From assembly GCF_004354015.1 (NCBI RefSeq), contig NZ_SMRU01000011.1, forward strand, positions 62,001-126,000: a DNA stretch of 64,000 bases, read 5' to 3'. The first letter of the stretch is position 1, and each line of letters opens with the position of its first letter. The stretch comes from Arthrobacter terricola. Lineage in GTDB: Bacteria > Actinomycetota > Actinomycetes > Actinomycetales > Micrococcaceae. The translations under genes were made by a program, and so were the position numbers. Positions 5,299 through 63,778 of the stretch are shown in pieces. The notes beneath the pieces were generated by a model. That model was given only the letters and a program-made list of their open reading frames with translations. It had not been told where the DNA came from and did not search any database.

Positions 5299-6897
5299 TC
5301 AGGATGCGGACTGGACCAGCTGAAGGAGCGCCTTCCCGTCAGGACTGCCCAGGCCGGTGCACGGATCCCAGCCCACCCCCGCCCGGTAGCTTCCGTTGGA
5401 ACCGACGGTAATGTCGTGGAAGCCCGACGCCGGATGGGTCCCGTTTTGGTAGAGGAGCGGCTGGATGAGGCCGAACCGGCGATTGCTGGCCTGCGCCAAG
5501 CGGGCGATCAGCGCGGCCCAGAGGGGCGCCACCGCGCTGGTTCCGCCGATCACCATGTCCTTTCCGTCGACGCGGACGCGGTAGCCGGTCTGCGGATCTG
5601 CGACACCACAGACATCGGGCACTCCCCGGCCCGGATTCCTGGGCGCGGGTTTGTGCTTGGCGTGCCCAGCAACCCCGGATTGCCATGACGGAACAGGGAA
5701 GACGTCGCTGTAACCGCCGCCGGTGGCTGAGTTCGGGCCATCGTTCCACACGGTTTCGGAGCTGATCGCGCCAGTTTGGACATCCGCTGTCAGCCGGGTG
5801 CCGCCGCAGGCGAGCACGTGCGGGCTCGACGCCGGAAAGTCGGCATGGTCGCGATGGTCCGTTACGCCGTCGGCACTTCCGTTATCCCCCGCCGCCGCGG
5901 TGACGGTAACGCCGAGGGCCGCGGCATCCGCCATCGCTTGGTCGAAGGCCGTCCGGGCCTGGGCCGTCCAGGCGTCTTCGCTCTGGCCCCAGCTGATGCT
6001 GATCGCCGCGGGCGCGGGGCTCGCGTGGGATGCCGCAATGATCGCGTCCAGGAAGCCGGCGTCCGTATTGGGCGCAAAATAGACCACGATGCTTGCCTTC
6101 GGTGCGAGTGCTCCCACCACTTCGATGTCGAGCAGGACTTCCCCGTCGGCTCCCGACGGATCCTGCCCGGGTTGATTGGCTCCGCCGTCAACCCCCACGG
6201 CCGAGATGTCCGGCGTCGGAATCCCGAGCCCTAGGAAGTAGGCGTCGAGATCCGCCTGCCCGAATCCGCCGCCCAGCTCGAGGATCGCTACGACTTGGCC
6301 GCTGCCGTCGGTATCACTCGGAAAGTTGTAGATCATTCCCAACTGTGGCGGGGTGTAGCTCGTACCTGTCGCAGCCAGCGGGATCGCATGAAATTGTGCC
6401 CTGGCCTGCGGCCGGTCATCGAGGCCAAGTACGGCCACCACGACGCCATCCAGCACTTCGGGAATGTGCAGTCCCCCGGTGCGGTGCCGGTGCGTGACTG
6501 TGTTGCCGTCAGGCGCCCGGCTTGTGAGCTCGTCAAGGGAGGTTCCGAAAACGCTGCTTAGCTGCTCCACGGTCCCCTCCAGCCGGATCCTTCGGCTGGC
6601 GGCATCGGCGTCGGCAATATCCAGCCCAAGCCCGGCAAAGGTCCGCACTGCCAGGTCGAGATCGTCGCTTGATGCTCCATACCGCGACGCCAATTCGTCT
6701 TTCGAGATGGGACTGGACGGAACCTCCGTCATTTCCTCCTGGCGCCGGAGGACGACCGTTGCCTCGATCCGGCGGGCGGGATCGACGAGGCCGAGGATAT
6801 CCCGGGCGCCCGGGGCCGGCTCTCTCTCAGATCCCGGCAAAGGGACCTTCCGTGGTTCCTCTTGATTGGGGGTTTCGGGGCTGTTCTGGTTGGACAC
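5299..6897 (-). CDS. Sedolisin (S53) serine-carboxyl peptidase, kumamolisin-like
   Basis: A 532-residue proenzyme of peptidase family S53. Residues up to about 180 are the Pro-kumamolisin prodomain. The mature domain has the catalytic Glu253 and Asp257 (GEVLLDIEV), the oxyanion Asp338 (AAGDNGS) and the nucleophile Ser454 (GGTSAVAP). The carboxyl end carries the calcium-site pattern, with DITVGSNG and a glycine-rich segment. The start is GTG at 6897 with AGGAGA before it. The amino end is charged and proline-rich and I see no Sec, Tat or lipoprotein signal, so the export route is unclear. The family peptidases work at acidic pH. A glutamate decarboxylase lies divergently next door. Confidence 0.93.
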   Translation of the reverse strand: MSNQNSPETPNQEEPRKVPLPGSEREPAPGARDILGLVDPARRIEATVVLRRQEEMTEVPSSPISKDELASRYGASSDDLDLAVRTFAGLGLDIADADAASRRIRLEGTVEQLSSVFGTSLDELTSRAPDGNTVTHRHRTGGLHIPEVLDGVVVAVLGLDDRPQARAQFHAIPLAATGTSYTPPQLGMIYNFPSDTDGSGQVVAILELGGGFGQADLDAYFLGLGIPTPDISAVGVDGGANQPGQDPSGADGEVLLDIEVVGALAPKASIVVYFAPNTDAGFLDAIIAASHASPAPAAISISWGQSEDAWTAQARTAFDQAMADAAALGVTVTAAAGDNGSADGVTDHRDHADFPASSPHVLACGGTRLTADVQTGAISSETVWNDGPNSATGGGYSDVFPVPSWQSGVAGHAKHKPAPRNPGRGVPDVCGVADPQTGYRVRVDGKDMVIGGTSAVAPLWAALIARLAQASNRRFGLIQPLLYQNGTHPASGFHDITVGSNGSYRAGVGWDPCTGLGSPDGKALLQLVQSAS

Positions 6898-7320
6898 TGC
6901 TTCTCCTAACCTTGGGCCGCGCTGGGGTCCTGTCCGCGGCTGGACGCGTCACCTAAGGTACGCGCTACAAAAGGAACGGGTTGTCGTGGGACATTCCGGA
7001 TTCAGGCGGTGCTTCTTGCGCCCGGGCGGGACGCAGCAGAGGAGACGGAAATTCGCCCGGCGTCCGGGGCCCCCGTCCCCTCGCCGCGCGATCGCGCTGC
7101 GCTCTTCTGCTCGCCATGAGGAGACCTCTCTGGGCCTGGCAGTCGGGACCGCACGGTCCCACTTGAGATTATGCATCCGCCAGGCCCGCGGCCACCATGC
7201 CCAAGGGAAGATGGTGGCGGTGGAAAGCCTTGGGTGCAGCTGCCGGCAGAGGTAGCGTAGGGCTTTGGCAGGCCCTGCCGTTGCAACCGTGAGCGCCCCG
7301 GCAAGTCAAAGGAGCACACC
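6898..7320. other. Divergent intergenic region between sedolisin and gadB
   Basis: These 423 bases must hold the promoters of both divergent genes. I see a short inverted repeat, CCCAAGG at 7200-7206 with CCTTGGG at 7228-7234, inside a purine-rich stretch about 90 bases before gadB. The open frames here have no family resemblance and overlap each other, so I call no gene. No clear -35/-10 pair was recognised. Confidence 0.5.
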
Positions 7321-8721
7321 ATTAACAGGTCATACCGTACATCGGCCCATGAAACAGACACCGCAGTGGAGCTCAACCCCGTATTCAGCCGTCCGGGCGA
7401 GTCCACAATCTTCCCTCGCTTCACTCTCCCGGCAGGTGAATCACTTCCCTCGACCGCGTACCAGATCGTGCACGATGAGGCGATGCTGGACGGGAACTCG
7501 CGATTGAACCTGGCGACGTTCGTCGGCACCTGGATGGAGCCGGAAGCATCCAGGCTTTATGCGGAGACGTTCGACAAGAACATGATCGACAAGGATGAGT
7601 ACCCCCAGACGGCGCTGATTGAGACCCGGTGTTGGCGCATGCTCGCGGATTTGTGGAATGCTCCCGACGCCGAAAAGGCGGTGGGGACGTCCACTATTGG
7701 ATCCTCGGAGGCCTGCATGCTGGGCGGCTTGGCGCTGAAGCGCCGCTGGCAGCACGCACGTCGGGCTGCCGGGCTGCCGGCCGACACGCCGAACCTGGTC
7801 CTCAGTTCGGCCGTGCAGGTTTGTTGGGAGAAGTTCTGCAACTATTGGGACGTCGAAGCGAGGTATGTTCCGATCTCTCAGGAGCATCCGGTGCTTGACG
7901 GCCATGACCTCGATAAGTACGTGGATGAGAACACGATCGGTGTGGTCGCGATCATGGGTGTGACCTACACCGGTGCGTATGAGCCCGTTGCGGCAATCGC
8001 GGCGGCGTTGGATGAGATCCAGGCGCAGCGCGGATTCGATGTCCCGATCCATGTCGATGGAGCTTCCGGCGGCATGGTCGCTCCCTTCCTTCAGCCGGAG
8101 ACTTCGTGGGATTTCCGCTTGCCCAGGGTTGCGTCCATCAACACGTCAGGTCATAAATACGGGTTGGTGTACCCGGGCTTGGGGTGGATCGTCTGGCGCG
8201 ACGAGGACGCCCTCCCGGCGGACTTGGTGTTCCATGTGAGCTATCTGGGCGGGGACATGTCCAGCTTTGCCCTGAACTTCTCGCGTCCCGGCGCGCAGGT
8301 GCTGTTGCAGTATTACCTTTTCCTGCGGCTTGGATTCGAAGGCTACCGTTCCGTTCAAGCTACTTCTCGGGATGTAGCACTGTACCTTTCCGCGGAAATC
8401 GGGGCGCTGGAGCCATTCACGTTGCTGAGCGAGGGGGCGGACATCCCGGTCTTTGCCTGGCGGCTGACTGAGGGGTACACGGACAAATGGAATCTCCACC
8501 ATCTCTCAGAGCGGCTTCGGATGAATGGGTGGCTGGTTCCCGCCTATCCACTGCCGGCAAGCCTAAGTGAGGTCACCGTGCAGCGGATTGTTGTCCGCAA
8601 TGGTTTCACGCGCGATCTCGCGTCGAGCTTCCTGACTGACCTCAAGAAGGAAGTGGCCTATTTGGACAGCCTCTTGGCCCCTATGCCTGCCGACGGCCAG
8701 ACTCCCGCGTTCCATCACTAG
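7321..8721 (+). CDS. gadB: Glutamate decarboxylase, apparent ATT start
   Basis: PLP enzyme converting glutamate to 4-aminobutyrate while consuming a proton. The PLP lysine is in SGHKYG (residue 279 of 466) and the cofactor Asp in HVDGASGG. The frame contains the family's amino-terminal block INRSYRTSAHETDTA upstream of the first standard start (GTG at 7366). Between the in-frame stop at 7258-7260 and that GTG there is no ATG, GTG or TTG, but an ATT at 7321 sits 6 bases after AAAGGAG (7308-7314). I therefore place the start at ATT, giving 466 residues, the same length as E. coli GadB. A GTG start at 7366 (451 residues) would delete conserved sequence. Confidence 0.93.
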   Translation: MNRSYRTSAHETDTAVELNPVFSRPGESTIFPRFTLPAGESLPSTAYQIVHDEAMLDGNSRLNLATFVGTWMEPEASRLYAETFDKNMIDKDEYPQTALIETRCWRMLADLWNAPDAEKAVGTSTIGSSEACMLGGLALKRRWQHARRAAGLPADTPNLVLSSAVQVCWEKFCNYWDVEARYVPISQEHPVLDGHDLDKYVDENTIGVVAIMGVTYTGAYEPVAAIAAALDEIQAQRGFDVPIHVDGASGGMVAPFLQPETSWDFRLPRVASINTSGHKYGLVYPGLGWIVWRDEDALPADLVFHVSYLGGDMSSFALNFSRPGAQVLLQYYLFLRLGFEGYRSVQATSRDVALYLSAEIGALEPFTLLSEGADIPVFAWRLTEGYTDKWNLHHLSERLRMNGWLVPAYPLPASLSEVTVQRIVVRNGFTRDLASSFLTDLKKEVAYLDSLLAPMPADGQTPAFHH

Positions 8722-8747
8722 GCACCGCGAAGCAAGGAGGCCGGCCG

Positions 8748-9614
8748 ATGTGCCGAATGTTTGGATTGCATGCCGGTTCCGATTCGGTCCGGGCCACCTT
8801 CTGGCTGCTGGACGCTCCGGACAGCCTTGCCGACCAAAGCAAGCGGGAGCCGGACGGTGCGGGCATAGGCACGTTCGACACCGAGGGGAATCCGCACGTC
8901 GCGAAGCAGCCGTTGGCCGCTTGGGAGGACCACGCCTTTGCGCGTGAGGCCCGGGTCCTTAAGAGCGCGACGTTCCTTGCCCATGTCCGGTATGCGAGCA
9001 CTGGAGCGCATACCTTGGTTAATACGCACCCGTTTGAGCAAGACGGGCGGTTGTTTGCCCATAACGGCGCGTTCTCTGGCCTTGGCGTGCTGGACCGCCG
9101 CCTGGCAGAGTACGGCGTGAGCGATCTGGTGCTGGGCCAGACGGACAGTGAGCGGCTCTTCGCGTTGATTACGGCTGAAATCCGGCGTTCGGACGGTGAT
9201 GTAGGGAAGGGAGTCATCAAGGCGGTCAGGTGGGTAGCGGCCCACCTGCCTGTCTTGAGTTTGAATTTTATCTTGACGACGGCAACCGATCTTTGGGCCG
9301 TGAGATACCCGGATACCCACGAGTTGCACTTGCTGAAGCGCCCGCCGGCGAATCCCGACGGCGAGGATCCCTTGGATGCGCGGAGCCCGCGGATTCGCGC
9401 CCATAGCCGGGACCTTTCGCGGTCCGGTCACGTTCTGGTTGCCACCGAACCGATGGATGGGAATCCGGGGTGGCACGCGTTGGATCCCGGCGCGTTTGTC
9501 CACGTCGGCCCGGACTTGGAGGTGGAGGTCACTTATCCATTCCCGGAAGCTCCTGCCCGTCGCCTCATGTTGTCCGACTTGTCGCCGTCCGCTGCCGCTT
9601 CGCAGACTCCCTGA
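8748..9614 (+). CDS. Class II glutamine amidotransferase (YafJ-like)
   Basis: A 288-residue Ntn-type amidotransferase. The start MCRMFG leaves Cys2 as the N-terminal nucleophile after methionine removal. HVRYAST and HNGAFSG carry the usual glutamine-binding Arg and the oxyanion Asn-Gly. No synthase domain follows, so ammonia would be released or passed to a partner. It lies 26 bases after gadB with AAGGAGG before the ATG, so the two are probably co-transcribed. A glutaminase role feeding glutamate to GadB is conceivable but inferred only from position. EgtC-type peptidases are related; nothing else of ergothioneine synthesis is nearby. Confidence 0.88.
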   Translation: MCRMFGLHAGSDSVRATFWLLDAPDSLADQSKREPDGAGIGTFDTEGNPHVAKQPLAAWEDHAFAREARVLKSATFLAHVRYASTGAHTLVNTHPFEQDGRLFAHNGAFSGLGVLDRRLAEYGVSDLVLGQTDSERLFALITAEIRRSDGDVGKGVIKAVRWVAAHLPVLSLNFILTTATDLWAVRYPDTHELHLLKRPPANPDGEDPLDARSPRIRAHSRDLSRSGHVLVATEPMDGNPGWHALDPGAFVHVGPDLEVEVTYPFPEAPARRLMLSDLSPSAAASQTP

Positions 9615-55699: not shown

Positions 55700-56578
55700 G
55701 TGCAGATTCCGGCTCCATTCGATTATGAGCGCGCAAGCGATGTCGCCAACGCGCTGGCACTCCTCGAACGCCACGGTCCGGAGTCCCGGGCCATTGCCGG
55801 CGGCCACAGTTTGCTGCCAATGATGAAACTGAGGCTCGCCCGGCCGGAATGGCTGATCGACATCAACGACCTCGCGGAACTGGACTTCATTCGCCGGGAA
55901 GGCGACCAGCTGTGCGTGGGTGCATTAACCCGCCACACAGCGCTCCTCGAGTCAACCGAAGTCGCAGGCCTCTTTCCTATAGTGAGAGACGCCGAGCTTG
56001 TGATCGCGGACCCTGTAGTCCGCAACCGCGGCACTATTGGCGGTTCGCTCTGCCAAGCGGATCCGGCCGAGGACCTGTCCACGGTCTGCGATGTCCTGCG
56101 GGCCAAGGCCGTGATCCGCGGGCCTGGCGGCGAACGGATCGTCCCCATGTCGGACTTCCATCGCGGCCCCTACGAAACCGCCGTAGCTCAGAACGAGTTG
56201 CTCTGCGAGATCCGCTTCACGATCCGCCCGCGTTCGGGAAGCGCCTACGAGAAGGTCGAACGCAGGGTCGGTGACTGGGCCGTCGTAGCGGCGGGGGCCG
56301 CCGTCGTGCTCTCCGCAGACGGAACGATCGAAGAGGCTGCTGTAGGGCTCACGTCGGTTGGACTGGACGGTACGGTCGGAGAGGCCGAAGCCGTGCTCCG
56401 AGGACAGCAGCCACAGGAGGATCTGTTCGTCGAGGCCGCGCGCATCGCAGCCGCCGCCTGTCACCCGGTCGACGACCAGCGCGGACCGGTGGACTATAAG
56501 CGGCATCTGGCCGACGAACTCACCCGGCGGGTCCTTCGGCGTGCGTGTGTCCGCGCCACAGGTGCAGAGGAAGGCTGA
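55700..56578 (+). CDS. coxM: Carbon monoxide dehydrogenase, FAD-binding medium subunit
   Basis: 292 residues of the xanthine oxidase FAD-binding family. FAD-contact motifs are AGGHSLLPMMKLRL (about 32-45) and TIGGSLCQADPAED (about 112-125), both characteristic of CoxM. It carries electrons from the iron-sulfur subunit to the respiratory chain. Starts at GTG 55700 after AAGGGG. The order coxM-coxS-coxL is the classical one for aerobic CO dehydrogenase. Confidence 0.92.
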   Translation: MQIPAPFDYERASDVANALALLERHGPESRAIAGGHSLLPMMKLRLARPEWLIDINDLAELDFIRREGDQLCVGALTRHTALLESTEVAGLFPIVRDAELVIADPVVRNRGTIGGSLCQADPAEDLSTVCDVLRAKAVIRGPGGERIVPMSDFHRGPYETAVAQNELLCEIRFTIRPRSGSAYEKVERRVGDWAVVAAGAAVVLSADGTIEEAAVGLTSVGLDGTVGEAEAVLRGQQPQEDLFVEAARIAAAACHPVDDQRGPVDYKRHLADELTRRVLRRACVRATGAEEG

Positions 56579-56583
56579 AGACA

Positions 56584-57108
56584 ATGCAGGTCAGCATGAC
56601 AGTCAACGGGGAGGCAGTGACCCGGGACATCGAACCCCGCGTGTTGCTCGTCCACTTCATTCGCGAGAACCTCGGACTGACGGGCACCCACTGGGGATGC
56701 GACACCAGCAACTGCGGCACCTGCGTCGTCCTGATGGATGGCCAACCGGTGAAATCCTGCACCGTGCTCGCGGCCATGGCCGACGGACACGACATCCGCA
56801 CCGTCGAGGGACTGGTGGTCGGCGGCGCTCTCGATCCTGTTCAACAAGGATTCATGGAAGAACACGGACTGCAGTGCGGATTCTGCACGCCAGGCATGAT
56901 GCTCACCGCCAGGGCCTTGCTGGACCGCAATCCGCATCCCGACGACTCCGAAATCCGCCAAGCGATTTCCGGCCAGATCTGCCGGTGCACCGGTTATGCG
57001 ACCATCGTCCGTTCGGTTCAGTGGGCCGCCGCCCATCCCGCCGTGACGGACACCGCGGCGGATGGCGCCGGTACCGGCGAGAGCAACTCTGAAGAGGTGA
57101 CAGCATGA
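56584..57108 (+). CDS. coxS: Carbon monoxide dehydrogenase, [2Fe-2S] small subunit
   Basis: 174 residues with two iron-sulfur clusters. The ferredoxin-like set is GCDTSNCGTC plus VKSC, and the helical set is CGFC and CRCTGY. These relay electrons from the Mo-Cu site to FAD. AGGAAGG lies upstream of the ATG; overlap with coxL by ATGA. Confidence 0.95.
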   Translation: MQVSMTVNGEAVTRDIEPRVLLVHFIRENLGLTGTHWGCDTSNCGTCVVLMDGQPVKSCTVLAAMADGHDIRTVEGLVVGGALDPVQQGFMEEHGLQCGFCTPGMMLTARALLDRNPHPDDSEIRQAISGQICRCTGYATIVRSVQWAAAHPAVTDTAADGAGTGESNSEEVTA

Positions 57109-59498
57109 CCACCACACAGGAGCATGCGCCCAACCCGGCAGCCGGAGACCCAAACCGCCCGATCGGGTTCGGCCGCATCCAGCGCAAGGAAGACCCGCGG
57201 TTCGTCCGCGGCAAGGGCAACTATATTGACGACATCGTCCTGCCGGGCATGCTGCATGGCGCCATCCTGCGCGCACCCGTTGCGCATGCCCGGTTGGTTT
57301 CAATAGACACCACCGAGGCGTTGGCACATCCCAAAGTACGTGCCGTCATCACCGGCAAGGACCTGCAAGGCCTCAACCTGGCGTGGGCACCTACCCTGTC
57401 CGCCGACGTTCAGGCAGTCCTCGTGACCGACAAGGTGCGGTTCCAAGGCCAGGAGGTCGCATTCGTCGTCGCTGAGGACCGCTACGCCGCGCGGGACGCA
57501 CTGGAGCTGATCGACGTCGAATACGACGTGCTGCCGCCCTTGGTTGATGCCCGCCGCGCCCTGGACCCCGGAGCGCCAGTCATCCGTGACGATATCGAAG
57601 GGCGGACGGACAACCGGATCTTCGACTGGGAAGTCGGCGACGCGGCCGAAACCGAAGCGGTGTTCGCCACCGCCGACGTCGTGGTCGCCCAGGAGGTTGT
57701 GTACCCGCGCGTGCACCCTGCGCCCATGGAAACGTGCGGTGCCGTGGCGGACTTCGATCCGGTCGACGGGAGGCTGACCCTCTACGAAACCACCCAGGCC
57801 CCGCATGCCCACCGGACGTTGTACGCAATAGTCGCCGGCATTCCAGAGCACAAAATCAGGATCGTCTCCCCCGATATCGGCGGAGGCTTTGGCAACAAAG
57901 TGGGTATCTATCCCGGTTACGTCCTGGCTGTCGTCGGCTCGATCGTCACCGGCAAGCCGGTGAAGTGGGTGGAGGACCGCTCGGAAAACCTGATGTCGAC
58001 GTCGTTTGCCCGCGATTACATCATGCAGGGCGAGATCGCAGCCACCAAGGAAGGCAAGATCCTCGCAGTCCGGACAAGTGTGCTGGCTGACCACGGCGCC
58101 TTCAATGCCACTGCGCAGCCCACGAAAAACCCGGCCGGATTCTTCTCCATCTTCACGGGCAGTTACGACCTGAAGGCGGCCTATTGCAAAGTCACGGGCG
58201 TTTACACCAACAAGGCACCGGGCGGTGTGGCATACGCCTGCTCATTCCGCGTCACGGAAGCCGTATACCTGGTGGAGCGCATGGTGGATGTCCTGGCCCG
58301 GAAACTGGACATGGACCCGGCCGAGCTCCGGCTGAAGAATTTCATCAAGCCGGAACAATTCCCCTATGCGAACAAGACAGGCTGGGTATATGACTCGGGC
58401 AACTACGAGCCAGCCATGCGGCTGTCCATGCAAATGGCCGGGTACGAGGACCTCCGACGCGAACAGCGCGAAAAGCGCGGGCGCGGCGAGTTGATGGGTA
58501 TCGGAGTGTCCTTCTTCACGGAGACCGTCGGCGCCGGGCCGCGCAAGCACTTTGACATCGTTGGACTCGGCATGGCCGACGGTGCTGAACTCCGCGTGCA
58601 TCCGACCGGCAAGGCCGTCGTGAGGATCTCCGTGCAGAGCCAGGGCCAGGGCCACGAAACCACCTTCGCCCAGATCGTGGCAGAGGAGCTCGGCATCCCG
58701 CCCGAGAGCATTGACGTGGTCCACGGCGACACTGACCAAACGCCCTTCGGCCTCGGCACCTACGGCAGCAGGTCGACGCCGGTCAGCGGCGGCGCAGTCG
58801 CGCTGGTGGCGCGCAAGGTCCGGGACAAGGCGAAGTTCATTGCCGCGGCGATGCTTGAAGCCCGGCCCGAAGACCTCGAGTGGGAAAAGGGCCGCTGGTT
58901 CGTCAAGGGCGATCCCAGCGTCGGCAAGACCATCACCGAGATCGCCTTCGCGGCCCATGGCACAGTGCCCTTGCCAGATGGCATCGACGGCAATCTGGAT
59001 GCGGAAGTGACGTATGACCCTCCGAACCTGACGTTTCCGTTCGGGGCATATATCTGCGTGGTGGACGTCGACGCGGGAACCGGCCAAGTCAAGGTCCGGC
59101 GCTTCATTGCTGTGGACGACTGCGGGACCCGGATCAACCCGATGATCATCGAGGGCCAGGTCCATGGCGGGCTCACGGACGGAGTCGGGATGGCGCTGAT
59201 GGAAATCATCGCATTCGACGAGGCAGGCAACTGCCTCAGCAGCTCGTTCATGGACTACCTTATCCCCACGGCGATGGAAGTCCCGGACTGGGAGACCGGC
59301 TTTACTGTGACGCCGTCGCCGCACCACCCGATCGGCGCCAAAGGCATCGGCGAGTCGGCCACTGTCGGGTCCCCGCCTGCCATCGTCAACGCTATCGTCG
59401 ATGCTTTGGCTCCATTCGGCGTGACGCACATGGACATGCCATGCACCCCGGCCCGGGTCTGGGAAGCCATGCAAGGACGAGCCAGGCCGCCGGTGTGA
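57105..59498 (+). CDS. coxL: Carbon monoxide dehydrogenase, form I molybdenum large subunit
   Basis: 797 residues. The active-site loop is AYACSFR (residues 376-382), matching the form I signature AYxCSFR. Cys379 corresponds to the cysteine that binds copper in the Mo-S-Cu centre. The paralogous form II and xanthine dehydrogenase types carry AYRGAGR-like loops, so this is a genuine CO oxidiser by signature. Other cofactor segments are GGGFGNKVGIYPG, QGQGHETTFAQ and IGAKGIGES near the end. The product oxidises CO with water to CO2, yielding electrons. It is coupled to coxS and followed by maturation genes. Confidence 0.95.
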   Translation: MTTTQEHAPNPAAGDPNRPIGFGRIQRKEDPRFVRGKGNYIDDIVLPGMLHGAILRAPVAHARLVSIDTTEALAHPKVRAVITGKDLQGLNLAWAPTLSADVQAVLVTDKVRFQGQEVAFVVAEDRYAARDALELIDVEYDVLPPLVDARRALDPGAPVIRDDIEGRTDNRIFDWEVGDAAETEAVFATADVVVAQEVVYPRVHPAPMETCGAVADFDPVDGRLTLYETTQAPHAHRTLYAIVAGIPEHKIRIVSPDIGGGFGNKVGIYPGYVLAVVGSIVTGKPVKWVEDRSENLMSTSFARDYIMQGEIAATKEGKILAVRTSVLADHGAFNATAQPTKNPAGFFSIFTGSYDLKAAYCKVTGVYTNKAPGGVAYACSFRVTEAVYLVERMVDVLARKLDMDPAELRLKNFIKPEQFPYANKTGWVYDSGNYEPAMRLSMQMAGYEDLRREQREKRGRGELMGIGVSFFTETVGAGPRKHFDIVGLGMADGAELRVHPTGKAVVRISVQSQGQGHETTFAQIVAEELGIPPESIDVVHGDTDQTPFGLGTYGSRSTPVSGGAVALVARKVRDKAKFIAAAMLEARPEDLEWEKGRWFVKGDPSVGKTITEIAFAAHGTVPLPDGIDGNLDAEVTYDPPNLTFPFGAYICVVDVDAGTGQVKVRRFIAVDDCGTRINPMIIEGQVHGGLTDGVGMALMEIIAFDEAGNCLSSSFMDYLIPTAMEVPDWETGFTVTPSPHHPIGAKGIGESATVGSPPAIVNAIVDALAPFGVTHMDMPCTPARVWEAMQGRARPPV

Positions 59499-59499
59499 C

Positions 59500-60453
59500 G
59501 TGCCCGCGTACGGAGAAGCCCTGGCGGCGAAGGCGCAGGAACTCGTAGGGCGCCGCGAGCCCTTTGTGCGCGCCACGGTAGTGCGCGCCCAGCACCCGAC
59601 CAGTGCCCACGCGGGCGACACGGCCTTGGTGCTCGCAAACGGGGAAATCGACGGATTCCTCGGCGGCACCTGCGTCGAGGCTTCCGTGCGCGAATATGGC
59701 CTGCAGACGCTGTCGAAGCACGAACCGCTGCTGCTGCGCGTCGTTCCGGGCGAGCCGTCCCGCATCAGCCAGGAGGGCGCCGTGGAGGTCGCAAACCCCT
59801 GCCTTAGCGGCGGCGCCGTGGAGATCTTCCTCGAGCCCCAAATGCCACCTGCACGGGTAGTCGTGGTCGGCGCGACCCCCGTGGCACAAGCCTTGGGCGC
59901 CTTGGGGACAATCCTTGACTTGGACATGGAACTCACCGACGGAAATGCTGCTGAACCACGGGCAGACGACGCCGCCCTCATTGTCGCGTCACAGGGCCGG
60001 GACGAGGAGCCTTCGCTGGAAGCCGCACTGCGCCTTGGTGTGCCATACGTCGCCCTTGTCGCGAGCCGCACGCGCGGAGCCGCCGTCCTGGCGTCACTCG
60101 ACGTCGACGACGAACAGCGTGCGCGGGTGCACAGCCCGGCCGGGCTGATGTTGGGCGGCCGAACACCCGCCGAGATCGCGCTGTCGATCCTTGCGGAACT
60201 CGTGTCCTTACGTTCCACTGGCCGGGCCGCAGAGCGGGCCCCGGCAGAGCCTGCCACTCCGGAGCCTTCGACGGCGGAACCGGCGCCCCCGGCGTCGCCG
60301 ACGAGCGCCGTCGACCCCGTCTGCGGAATGACCGTCGCTGCGGTGGAGGCTACACTGCATGCCGAATACGCCGGAACGACATACTACTTTTGTTCCCCTG
60401 GATGCAGGCGAGCCTTCCTCGCGGAACCGGAGCGCTATGCCGCCGCGTCCTGA
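59500..60453 (+). CDS. XdhC/CoxF-like maturation protein fused to a YHS domain
   Basis: 317 residues. An N-terminal XdhC/CoxI segment (1-110, FLGGTCVEASVREYG) and a truncated Rossmann-like part (118-240, VVVVGATPVAQALG) lead through a Pro/Ala/Glu linker (245-270). A C-terminal YHS metal-binding domain follows: DPVCGMTV (Cys275) and FCSPGC (Cys298, Cys302). In Oligotropha, CoxE and CoxF are needed for copper insertion into CO dehydrogenase, so a metal-binding YHS tail would suit that job. That link is inference. GTG start 1 base after the coxL stop. Confidence 0.85.
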   Translation: MPAYGEALAAKAQELVGRREPFVRATVVRAQHPTSAHAGDTALVLANGEIDGFLGGTCVEASVREYGLQTLSKHEPLLLRVVPGEPSRISQEGAVEVANPCLSGGAVEIFLEPQMPPARVVVVGATPVAQALGALGTILDLDMELTDGNAAEPRADDAALIVASQGRDEEPSLEAALRLGVPYVALVASRTRGAAVLASLDVDDEQRARVHSPAGLMLGGRTPAEIALSILAELVSLRSTGRAAERAPAEPATPEPSTAEPAPPASPTSAVDPVCGMTVAAVEATLHAEYAGTTYYFCSPGCRRAFLAEPERYAAAS

Positions 60454-60531: not shown

Positions 60532-61452
60532 GTGACCATGCCGGCGCGGGCAGGTGCAGAAGACGATGTCCGGCGCCTGGTTCCGGACGTTTCCGCGCTC
60601 ATGAGCGCGCTGGACGACGTCGACTACCTTGCCGACGTCGGACTGGCTACCGCGCTGTTCCTCTCGGTCCGGTTGCCCCAACCTATCCTGTTGGAGGGCG
60701 AGGCCGGCGTCGGGAAGACCGAGGCGGCGAAGGCGTTGGCCAAGGTGCTCGACACTCCCTTGTATCGCTTGCAGTGCTACGAGGGCATCGATGCGGGCGA
60801 GGCACTCTACGAGTGGAATCATCCACGCCAACTCCTGAGCATCCGTTTGGCGGAGGTCCGGGATGTCCACGTCGAGGAGGCCGAGCTTTTTGGCGAAAAA
60901 TACCTGCTGCGTCGGCCGCTGCTGAAGGCGATCGAGCACCCCGGTCCGCGACCGGCCGTACTGCTGCTGGATGAGATCGACCGGGCCGACGCAGAGTTCG
61001 AAGCCTTCACCTTCGAGCTTCTCGCCGAGGCAGCGGTCTCGATTCCCGAGCTGGGTACTATCCGGGCCACGCACCCGCCTGTCGTCGTCCTGACATCGAA
61101 TAGGACCAGGGACTTGCACGACGCGCTGACCCGACGCTGCCTCTACCACTGGATTGACTACCCCCAGCCCGAGCGGATCGCCGCGATTGTTCGCCGGAGG
61201 GTGCCTGGGAGCGCCGAGCCCCTGGCCCTTGATGCAGCATCCGCCATCACCAGGTTGCGGTCCCTCGACATGGCCAAACCCCCGGGCATCGCAGAGGCCA
61301 TCGACTGGGTCTCCGCGCTGAGCGTGCTTGGCGTGGAACGCCTGGATCCGGTTGCCGTGAAGCAAACCTGGGGCGCGGTCGTGAAGAATCGCGACGATCT
61401 GGACCTTGCGTGGGCACGCGGCCCCGCATGGGTGGCTGGCGGGCATGACTAG
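60532..61452 (+). CDS. coxD: MoxR-type AAA+ ATPase CoxD
   Basis: 306 residues. Walker A is EGEAGVGKT (about 55-63), Walker B LLLDEID (about 144-150), sensor 1 TSNRTR. MoxR ATPases work as chaperones for cofactor assembly; CoxD of Oligotropha is required for sulfuration of the CO dehydrogenase Mo-Cu centre. Starts at GTG 60532 or ATG 60538. It overlaps coxE by 8 bases, its usual VWA partner. Confidence 0.93.
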   Translation: MTMPARAGAEDDVRRLVPDVSALMSALDDVDYLADVGLATALFLSVRLPQPILLEGEAGVGKTEAAKALAKVLDTPLYRLQCYEGIDAGEALYEWNHPRQLLSIRLAEVRDVHVEEAELFGEKYLLRRPLLKAIEHPGPRPAVLLLDEIDRADAEFEAFTFELLAEAAVSIPELGTIRATHPPVVVLTSNRTRDLHDALTRRCLYHWIDYPQPERIAAIVRRRVPGSAEPLALDAASAITRLRSLDMAKPPGIAEAIDWVSALSVLGVERLDPVAVKQTWGAVVKNRDDLDLAWARGPAWVAGGHD

Positions 61453-62737: not shown

Positions 62738-63778
62738 TTACCCGCCGATATAGGACATCTCGATCTTCCGGGGCGCTTTTGGCGCCCCGGACGTGCGGGC
62801 CCCGCGCAGTTCGGAATAGCGGTCTGTGCGGCCACCCCAGAGCGCGGACAGCGCGGCGGAAAGTTCGACGTCGGACGCGCCGCCGCGCAATAAGGCCCGC
62901 AAGTCGGTGCCAGCCGTTGCAAAGAGGCACGTGAACAGCTTGCCGTCCGCAGACAGGCGAGCCCGGGTGCAGCCGCGGCAGAAGGCTTGCGTGACGCTTG
63001 AGATGACCCCGATTTCACCGCTGCCGTCAGTGTAGCGCCAGCGGTCGGACGTTTCTCCCGGGTAATTGGGTGGCACTTGTTCCAGCGGGAAGACCGTGTT
63101 GATGCGTGACAGGACCTCCGCGGACGGCACTACCTCGTCCATTTTCCAGCCGTTGGAGGCTCCAACATCCATGTATTCGATAAACCGCAAGATGAATCCG
63201 GTTCCTCGGAAGTGGCTGGCCATGTCGAGGATGTCCTGGTCGTTCCTCCCCCGCTTGACCACCATGTTGATCTTGACGGGTCCCAGCCCTGCGTCCCGGG
63301 CGACGTCCGCGGCGTGGAGGACCCTGGCCACGGGATAGCCGACGTCGTTCATCGCTTGGAAGGTCTCTTCCCGGAGGGAGTCCAGCGAGACTGTCACGCG
63401 ATTCAGGCCCGCATCTTTGAGGAGTTGCGCTTTCTGCGCGAGGACGGAACCGTTGGTGGTCATGGCGATATCCGGTGCTTCGCCCGCGGGTGTGCGCAGC
63501 GCTGCCAGCATCCGGACAAGATCCTCAATGTCCTTCCGCAGCAACGGTTCTCCGCCCGTGAGTCGGATCTTCCGCACTCCGTGCGCGACAGCGATGGAGG
63601 TGAGCCGGGTGATTTCCTCGAAGGTCAGGAGCTGGTCCTTGGGCATGAAGGCGAAGTCCCGGCCGAAGATCTCCTTCGGCATGCAGTACACGCAGCGGAA
63701 ATTGCAACGGTCGGTAACCGAAATCCTCAAATCCCGCAGTGGCCGGCGGAAAGTGTCAACGATCGGATCAACGTCCAT
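62738..63778 (-). CDS. moaA: GTP 3',8-cyclase MoaA
   Basis: 346-residue radical SAM enzyme for the first step of molybdenum cofactor synthesis. The SAM cluster motif is CNFRCVYC (about 22-29). The C-terminal cluster is CRGC with a later Cys in FTCLF, and the protein ends in the essential Gly-Gly (MSYIGG). CO dehydrogenase needs molybdenum cofactor (cytosine dinucleotide form), so its place 33 bases from coxE, convergent, is functionally sensible though not a shared transcript. Confidence 0.95.

Follow-up and report, generated by a model that had tools for sequence, protein, structure and literature searches.

In the Mo-Cu carbon monoxide dehydrogenase, an enzyme with a bimetallic site, copper delivery is unsettled; the published model comes from one organism, and the CoxF of that organism has no YHS domain. 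For the Cu-S-Mo cluster the Oligotropha enzyme serves as the reference, and disruption of either coxE or coxF leaves an enzyme without Cu, its Mo mostly in the dioxo form and in part sulfurated (PMC4240915). CoxE is absent in the coxF mutant and CoxF in the coxE mutant, and because each protein is missing when the other gene is disrupted, the roles of the two are not separated (PMC4240915). Two motifs have been published for this CoxF, a putative Cu motif M107CPSHGTM and a phytase motif R266HGQRQS (PMC4240915). Among XdhC-like proteins in general, one Cys is conserved in almost all members according to a review (PMC2997495). The YHS domain has been described in the adenylyl cyclase of M. phlei, where its ligands are D178, C181, C204 and C208; this cyclase is activated by copper, being switched on at 1-10 uM Cu2+ but not by Zn, Fe, Cr, Co or Ni (PMC4626032).

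Each of the domains considered here is already known. A literature search, with most subscription papers and all preprints outside its reach, found no paper in which the YHS domain is linked to CoxF, to XdhC or to carbon monoxide dehydrogenase, and the main CoxF paper makes no mention of YHS (PMC4240915).

The coxF gene of the window and its surroundings

The window, the whole stretch of 64,000 nucleotides that was analysed, contains a form I coxMSL set with adjoining coxD and coxE. In this Arthrobacter-like genome the operon order is coxM-coxS-coxL-coxF(YHS)-coxD-coxE, with the following features.

55700..56578, plus strand: coxM, FAD subunit
56545..57108, plus strand: coxS, 2Fe-2S subunit (ORF as listed; a later ATG may be the true start)
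57105..59498, plus strand: coxL, form I large subunit (TIGR02416, 1365 bits, cut-off 991)
58230-58250, plus strand: AYACSFR, the form I (Cu-type) motif of coxL, its Cys being residue 379
59500..60453, plus strand: coxF-type gene, XdhC/CoxF body with C-terminal YHS, 317 aa, GTG start
59551..59739, plus strand: XdhC_CoxI domain (PF02625), residues 18-80 (Pfam, 54.1 bits, cut-off 24.3)
59671..59673, plus strand: Cys58 codon (Cys in 144/144 CoxF and in 45/47 paralogues)
59800..59802, plus strand: Cys101 codon (Cys in 144/144 CoxF; x-Ser next in 136/144)
59857..60201, plus strand: XdhC_C Rossmann domain (PF13478), residues 120-234 (Pfam, 79.4 bits, cut-off 29.7)
60220..60300, plus strand: Ala/Pro/Glu-rich linker, residues 241-267, fast-evolving, with pLDDT below 50 at 246-265
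60310..60444, plus strand: YHS domain (PF04945), residues 271-315 (57.2 bits, E 1.6e-15, cut-off 30.3)
60532..61452, plus strand: coxD-type AAA ATPase, matching the CoxD of Oligotropha OM5 (L097) at 271 bits
61406..62704, plus strand: coxE, VWA_CoxE protein (PF05762, 195 bits)
62738-63778, minus strand: moaA-type molybdenum cofactor gene, convergent to coxE and right behind the cox operon

The coxF frame runs from the GTG at 59500 to its stop at 60453, a single base separating it from the coxL stop. A first-pass annotation had read this ORF as an XdhC/CoxF body with a YHS tail, and the intact frame together with Pfam domains over their cut-offs bears this out. It had also placed Cys275, Cys298 and Cys302 in the YHS part, and both these positions and the ORF coordinates are correct. 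Its impression that the Rossmann part is shortened holds in length, since this part measures 115 aa (residues 120-234) against a median of 120 in the 117 YHS-bearing CoxFs and 135 in the Oligotropha CoxF; it does not hold for the domain as such, since the match takes in the whole XdhC_C profile (positions 1-125 of 125). The protein is XdhC-like but lies outside the two NCBIfam XdhC equivalog families, scoring 83 bits for NF045664 (cut-off 350) and 21 for TIGR02964 (cut-off 161.6). The same fusion is present at the same place in five named Arthrobacter genomes, which rules out an assembly artefact. Both XdhC_CoxI and XdhC_C were found in 36 of 36 sampled fusions (Pfam, E 0.001). Pfam called the YHS domain in 29 of these 36 at 1e-3, so our own profile is somewhat more sensitive.

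The whole protein contains five Cys residues, two in the body (58 and 101) and three in the YHS domain (275, 298 and 302). The latter three together with Asp272 are the putative metal ligands, one Asp and three Cys. Among the 117 fusions, Cys58, Cys101 and Cys302 are conserved in 117 each, Cys275 and Cys298 in 116 each and Asp272 in 113, and 108 carry the full D-x2-C-x22-C-x3-C pattern. The D/C/C/C ligand pattern was found in 0 of the 27 YHS-less CoxFs, even with relaxed spacing allowed. To judge from its motif, Cys58 would be the near-universal Cys of the XdhC review. At Cys101 the motif is C-x-S in CoxF, and CGG stands there in 34 of the 47 paralogues. A further site at which the two groups differ is at residues 121-130, where the dinucleotide loop of a Rossmann domain would be expected; it is mostly G-x-S/T-P in CoxF, with Pro127 in 133/144, as against Asp, His or Glu in 43/47 paralogues, and nucleotide binding may differ.

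Elsewhere in the 5.57 Mb of the window genome PF04945 has no further match (E 0.01), the coxF gene being the only one. The genome does possess a second, form II cluster (L311, G000:C15:60000-76000) with AYRGAGR, coxD, coxE, XdhC, coxS, coxL and coxM; the XdhC of this cluster and a further XdhC on contig C76 are both without YHS. COXG (PF06240) has its sole match in the genome on this form II contig, at 71131-71541, outside the form I operon of the window. In Arthrobacter sp. Hiyo8 (L022, AP014719.1), coxL, coxD and coxE are each spread over several frames and the CoxF-YHS frame is intact, a pattern that could come from sequencing error or decay.

Distribution of the YHS tail

Form I clusters were sampled through coxL (TIGR02416 over the cut-off) and not through the fusion. 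This gave 58 coxL places in 396 Actinomycetota genomes (57 neighbourhoods read, the 58th being the window), 12 in 289 genomes of the alphaproteobacterial class (12 read), 54 in 251 Chloroflexota genomes (42 read, 12 not fetched) and 9 in 274 genomes of the gamma/beta class (9 read); the last three samples are named after the named record at the centre of each. Eleven loci without a whole CoxF-type ORF on the stretch (six Actinomycetota, three alphaproteobacterial, two gamma/beta) were left out, as was a sample around G684, labelled Acidobacteria, in which 24 of 25 places repeated Actinomycetota places. Loci L006-L024 had been found by similarity to the fusion and were excluded from the group proportions.

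The YHS domain is attached to CoxF in 47 of 51 Actinomycetota loci with a CoxF-type ORF (one of the exceptions, L157, runs off its contig and was given no state in the tree), in all 42 Chloroflexota loci read, in 4 of 7 gamma/beta loci and in 0 of 9 alphaproteobacterial loci. Counting every CoxF-type ORF, the similarity-found ones included, 117 of 144 are fused to YHS. Far from being special to the window genome, the fusion is the form that most sampled CoxFs take. Named plasmid records with the tail include Thermomicrobium roseum, the haloarchaeon Natronorubrum bangense, Deinococcus sp. AJ005, Paraburkholderia aromaticivorans and Caballeronia sp. SBC1, and those without it are Oligotropha/Afipia OM5, Rhizobium jaguaris, Bradyrhizobium betae, Roseivivax, Marivivens, Shinella and Nonomuraea gerenzanensis. 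The Oligotropha CoxF, the sole CoxF with mutant data, is a YHS-less exception. In the CoxF survey no YHS-less locus had a separate, lone YHS gene; the only case, L017, turned out to be another frame of the same gene and was scored as YHS present in the tree.

Form II enzymes, with AYRGAGR and no Cu-ligand Cys, are not expected to contain copper, and their loci use CoxD- and CoxE-type helpers too. From 75 below-cut-off coxL places in Actinomycetota, a few of which are truncated form I pieces, 40 loci were fetched as a form II set; [AS]YRGAGR was present in 39 of them, L251 being without any pattern match. None of the 40 form II loci read contained a YHS ORF though 28 hold an XdhC, a contrast with form I that represents few independent events because the split between CoxF and other XdhC proteins is deep (support 99). 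YHS was likewise found on 0 of the 47 other XdhC ORFs of form I loci (CoxI type and fragments). In several form II loci (L229-L247) one ORF matches the N-terminal part of XdhC and another, overlapping or next to it, the C-terminal part, which looks like a gene split in two.

The reverse search, with a 36-row profile of the fusion against 296 Actinomycetota genomes, returned 73 matches. Full fusions made up 44 of these, and 42 of the 44 had coxL on the same contig, counting G551 with its coxL about 3.5 kb off on the other strand and G417, G396, G420, G452 and G323 with a coxL fragment at the contig edge. As for the remaining two, G401 has only coxD and coxE, its coxF lying at the contig edge, and G337 is itself cut at a contig edge. 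The other 29 matches comprise 22 weaker XdhC proteins (at most 120 bits) ending at profile position 275 or earlier, four cut by a contig end (G441, G481, G312 and G566), the YHS-less L103 (G442), a disrupted match without YHS (G416) and a partial piece with YHS (G513, L307). In the genomes sampled, the YHS fusion is restricted to form I clusters. The partial piece, an orphan short ORF (L307:2642-3046, G513:C11), consists of an XdhC end plus YHS with no cox genes in the 10 kb read, and could be a remnant or an assembly fragment.

A quick tree under a simple model was built from the bodies of 144 CoxF and 47 paralogues, YHS excluded. CoxF forms a clade apart from the paralogues (support 99), and the window CoxF groups with that of Oligotropha and not with CoxI/XdhC. 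The YHS state requires a minimum of seven changes on this tree, or six when the second copies of L171, L173 and L176 are taken out. The YHS-less rows are an alphaproteobacterial clade (15 alphaproteobacterial rows, that is the nine sampled and six named plasmids, plus L179), L174/L175, L116, L228, L102 and L103. Within the genus coded g96, four of six CoxFs have the tail (L104-L107) and two do not (L102 and L103), with no YHS in any frame downstream of these two. There are thus at least five separate YHS-less lineages, one of them with a Cu-loaded enzyme, and YHS is not universally required. Because YHS-less CoxFs recur, even inside a single genus, the domain is dispensable for some enzymes; either it is a help that certain lineages can forgo, or another part has taken over its job there.

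The gamma/beta loci L171, L173 and L176 each have two CoxF-type XdhC genes, one with YHS and one without, and the YHS-less copies are basal in the CoxF clade. Among the actinobacterial CoxFs without YHS, two have a short C-terminal tail rich in Cys and His, GGGCCGHGSG in L116 (ORF 5816-9157) and QHCAAHGH in L102 (ORF 8072-9061), which could possibly be substitute metal sites. Across L018-L228, MHYT proteins are present in 15 of the 22 loci lacking YHS, for example the alphaproteobacterial L097 and L223-L226, versus 2 of 105 YHS-bearing loci. Their reading as a replacement copper module was dropped because the tree control, with six independent pairs, shows no trend and marks the association as a clade signal, and because CoxC has been described as a CO-responsive regulator (PMC11347149).

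A proposed tethered copper module and its alternatives

The ligand spacing of the window YHS domain (3/23/4) is identical to that of the copper-activated M. phlei cyclase. Comparison of sequences leads us to the view that the YHS domain is probably a tethered copper module which helps CoxF to place Cu on the Mo=S group. The flexible tether would allow the domain to take up a copper ion via Asp272, Cys275, Cys298 and Cys302, while the XdhC body would dock on the folded apo-CoxL, whose Mo would already be sulfurated with the help of CoxD. YHS would then release its copper to the Mo=S sulfur and to the Cys of AYxCSFR in the active site, perhaps with Cys101 and Cys58 of the body as intermediate stations, and CoxE may assist the hand-over to the Mo site. 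We infer copper binding by YHS, the direction of transfer and the relay through Cys101 and Cys58.

The proposal of the first-pass annotation that a built-in copper domain gives the delivery mechanism is upheld to this extent: the protein is a CoxF, and the comparison links YHS to the copper enzyme (42 of 44 full fusions with coxL, 0 of 40 form II loci). As a general mechanism it fails, because the Oligotropha CoxF is without YHS and yet its enzyme is known for the Cu-S-Mo cluster.

The identical spacing also lends itself to a different role. The M. phlei domain has been described as a Cu2+ switch of the attached enzyme (PMC4626032), and the YHS of CoxF could similarly act as a copper sensor rather than a donor, switching the XdhC body so that sulfurated Mo is handled only in the presence of copper, the copper of the enzyme itself coming from elsewhere. 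Recurrent loss of YHS would suit such a regulatory add-on. However, the segment that connects the body to YHS (residues 239-271 in the window) varies from 13 to 83 aa among the fusions, with a median of 21, and the linker evolves fast, as one would sooner expect of a tether than of an allosteric joint; in the M. phlei cyclase, by contrast, the linkers have 8-11 residues (PMC4626032). CoxF furthermore has no known catalytic output to be switched, and we regard a sensor as unlikely.

The rate of evolution was estimated from six Arthrobacter orthologues, the window and the five named genomes. Over the 15 pairs, pooled dN/dS came to 0.07 in the body and 0.11 in YHS, against 0.53 in the linker. The low values in body and YHS, together with retention in the five Arthrobacter genomes, argue that the fusion is not due to chance. 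In an AlphaFold model (shallow alignment) the YHS blocks at 271-310 reach pLDDT of 91-97, and linker residues 246-265 stay below 50. Foldseek/VIA rows on this model align to the XdhC body, and the YHS part is barely covered since the body filled the lists. The predicted CoxF model matches the fold of 2we8 (Z 14.3, rmsd 4.6, 213 residues aligned).

The dN/dS values also bear on the idea that YHS is a passive or vestigial add-on and that the XdhC body alone does the work, as in Oligotropha. The natural occurrence of CoxFs without YHS, in at least five lineages separately, would fit. Purifying selection on YHS, so different from the linker, speaks against it, as do ligands that are near-invariant in 117 fusions from Actinomycetota, Chloroflexota, Deinococcus, proteobacteria and a haloarchaeon; we consider this very improbable.

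Finally, the domain might bind zinc or iron, or no metal at all, and serve as a docking module for CoxE, CoxD or CoxL, in which case the link to form I would reflect partner identity only. Relatives of the domain offer precedents, as a crystal of the TRASH relative L24e has Cd bound, while the YHS of toluene-4-hydroxylase was solved metal-free (both as told in PMC4626032), and our fusion profile weakly matches phenol hydroxylase and L24e chains. On the other hand, conservation of the four ligands equals that of the most conserved body residues, and the 40 form II loci lack YHS despite having CoxD- and CoxE-type partners. Docking alone is thus a rather doubtful explanation, and a tethered copper module remains our preferred reading.

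Tentatively, and with somewhat less than an even chance in our estimation, CoxF-YHS could have been from the start the copper chaperone dedicated to the Mo-S-Cu enzyme, uniting a Moco-handling XdhC body with a copper carrier in a single chain. The form I CoxF line would have acquired it early and lost it several times, which would make Oligotropha derived and its copper-phytate motifs local to a few strains. MCPSHGTM and RHGxR are both absent from the window CoxF. Among the 144 CoxFs, MCPSHGxM occurs in 2, RHGxR in 2 and RHGxRxP in 1, which rules out the Oligotropha Cu and phytase motifs as a general alternative. Should this history be correct, these motifs would not describe copper loading in most CO oxidisers.

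Comparison with known systems

A tail that is common to most sampled relatives and missing in the model species provides a handle on the copper-loading question. If YHS is the copper carrier, it offers a small defined site with mutable ligands, form II as a natural control and a set of natural losses, and it would guide enzyme engineering in the choice of the accessory gene form for co-expression.

The CoxF of Oligotropha (Afipia) carboxidovorans OM5 (pHCG3, L097:7968-8810) has, like that of the window, a CoxF-type body (278 bits to the family profile), falls in the same clade, retains both body Cys residues and sits in a form I operon with CoxD and CoxE as partners. It differs in its length of 280 aa and the absence of YHS, its chain stopping 20 residues from the site that corresponds to residue 234 in the window protein, and the gene order is MSL-D-E-F-G versus M-S-L-F-D-E in the window.

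The XdhC/CoxI Moco chaperones (R. capsulatus XdhC, CoxI and form II XdhC; structures 2we7/2we8 and 3on5) share the two-domain fold of the predicted CoxF model and, in 45 of 47 paralogues, the equivalent of Cys58. They form a separate clade from CoxF (support 99), mostly have CGG (34 of 47) in place of C-x-S, and none of those examined has YHS.

The XdhC-YHS proteins of T. roseum, N. bangense, Deinococcus sp. AJ005 and P. aromaticivorans have the architecture of the window protein and belong to form I clusters, although lineage and gene order differ. All four records are annotated as 'XdhC family protein', a product name that makes no mention of YHS.

The YHS domains (PF04945) of the M. phlei adenylyl cyclase and of Cu-ATPases have the same D-x2-C-x22-C-x3-C spacing and are likewise C-terminal modules on a linker. 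Their partner is a cyclase or a transporter, whereas that of the window YHS is a molybdoenzyme maturation factor.
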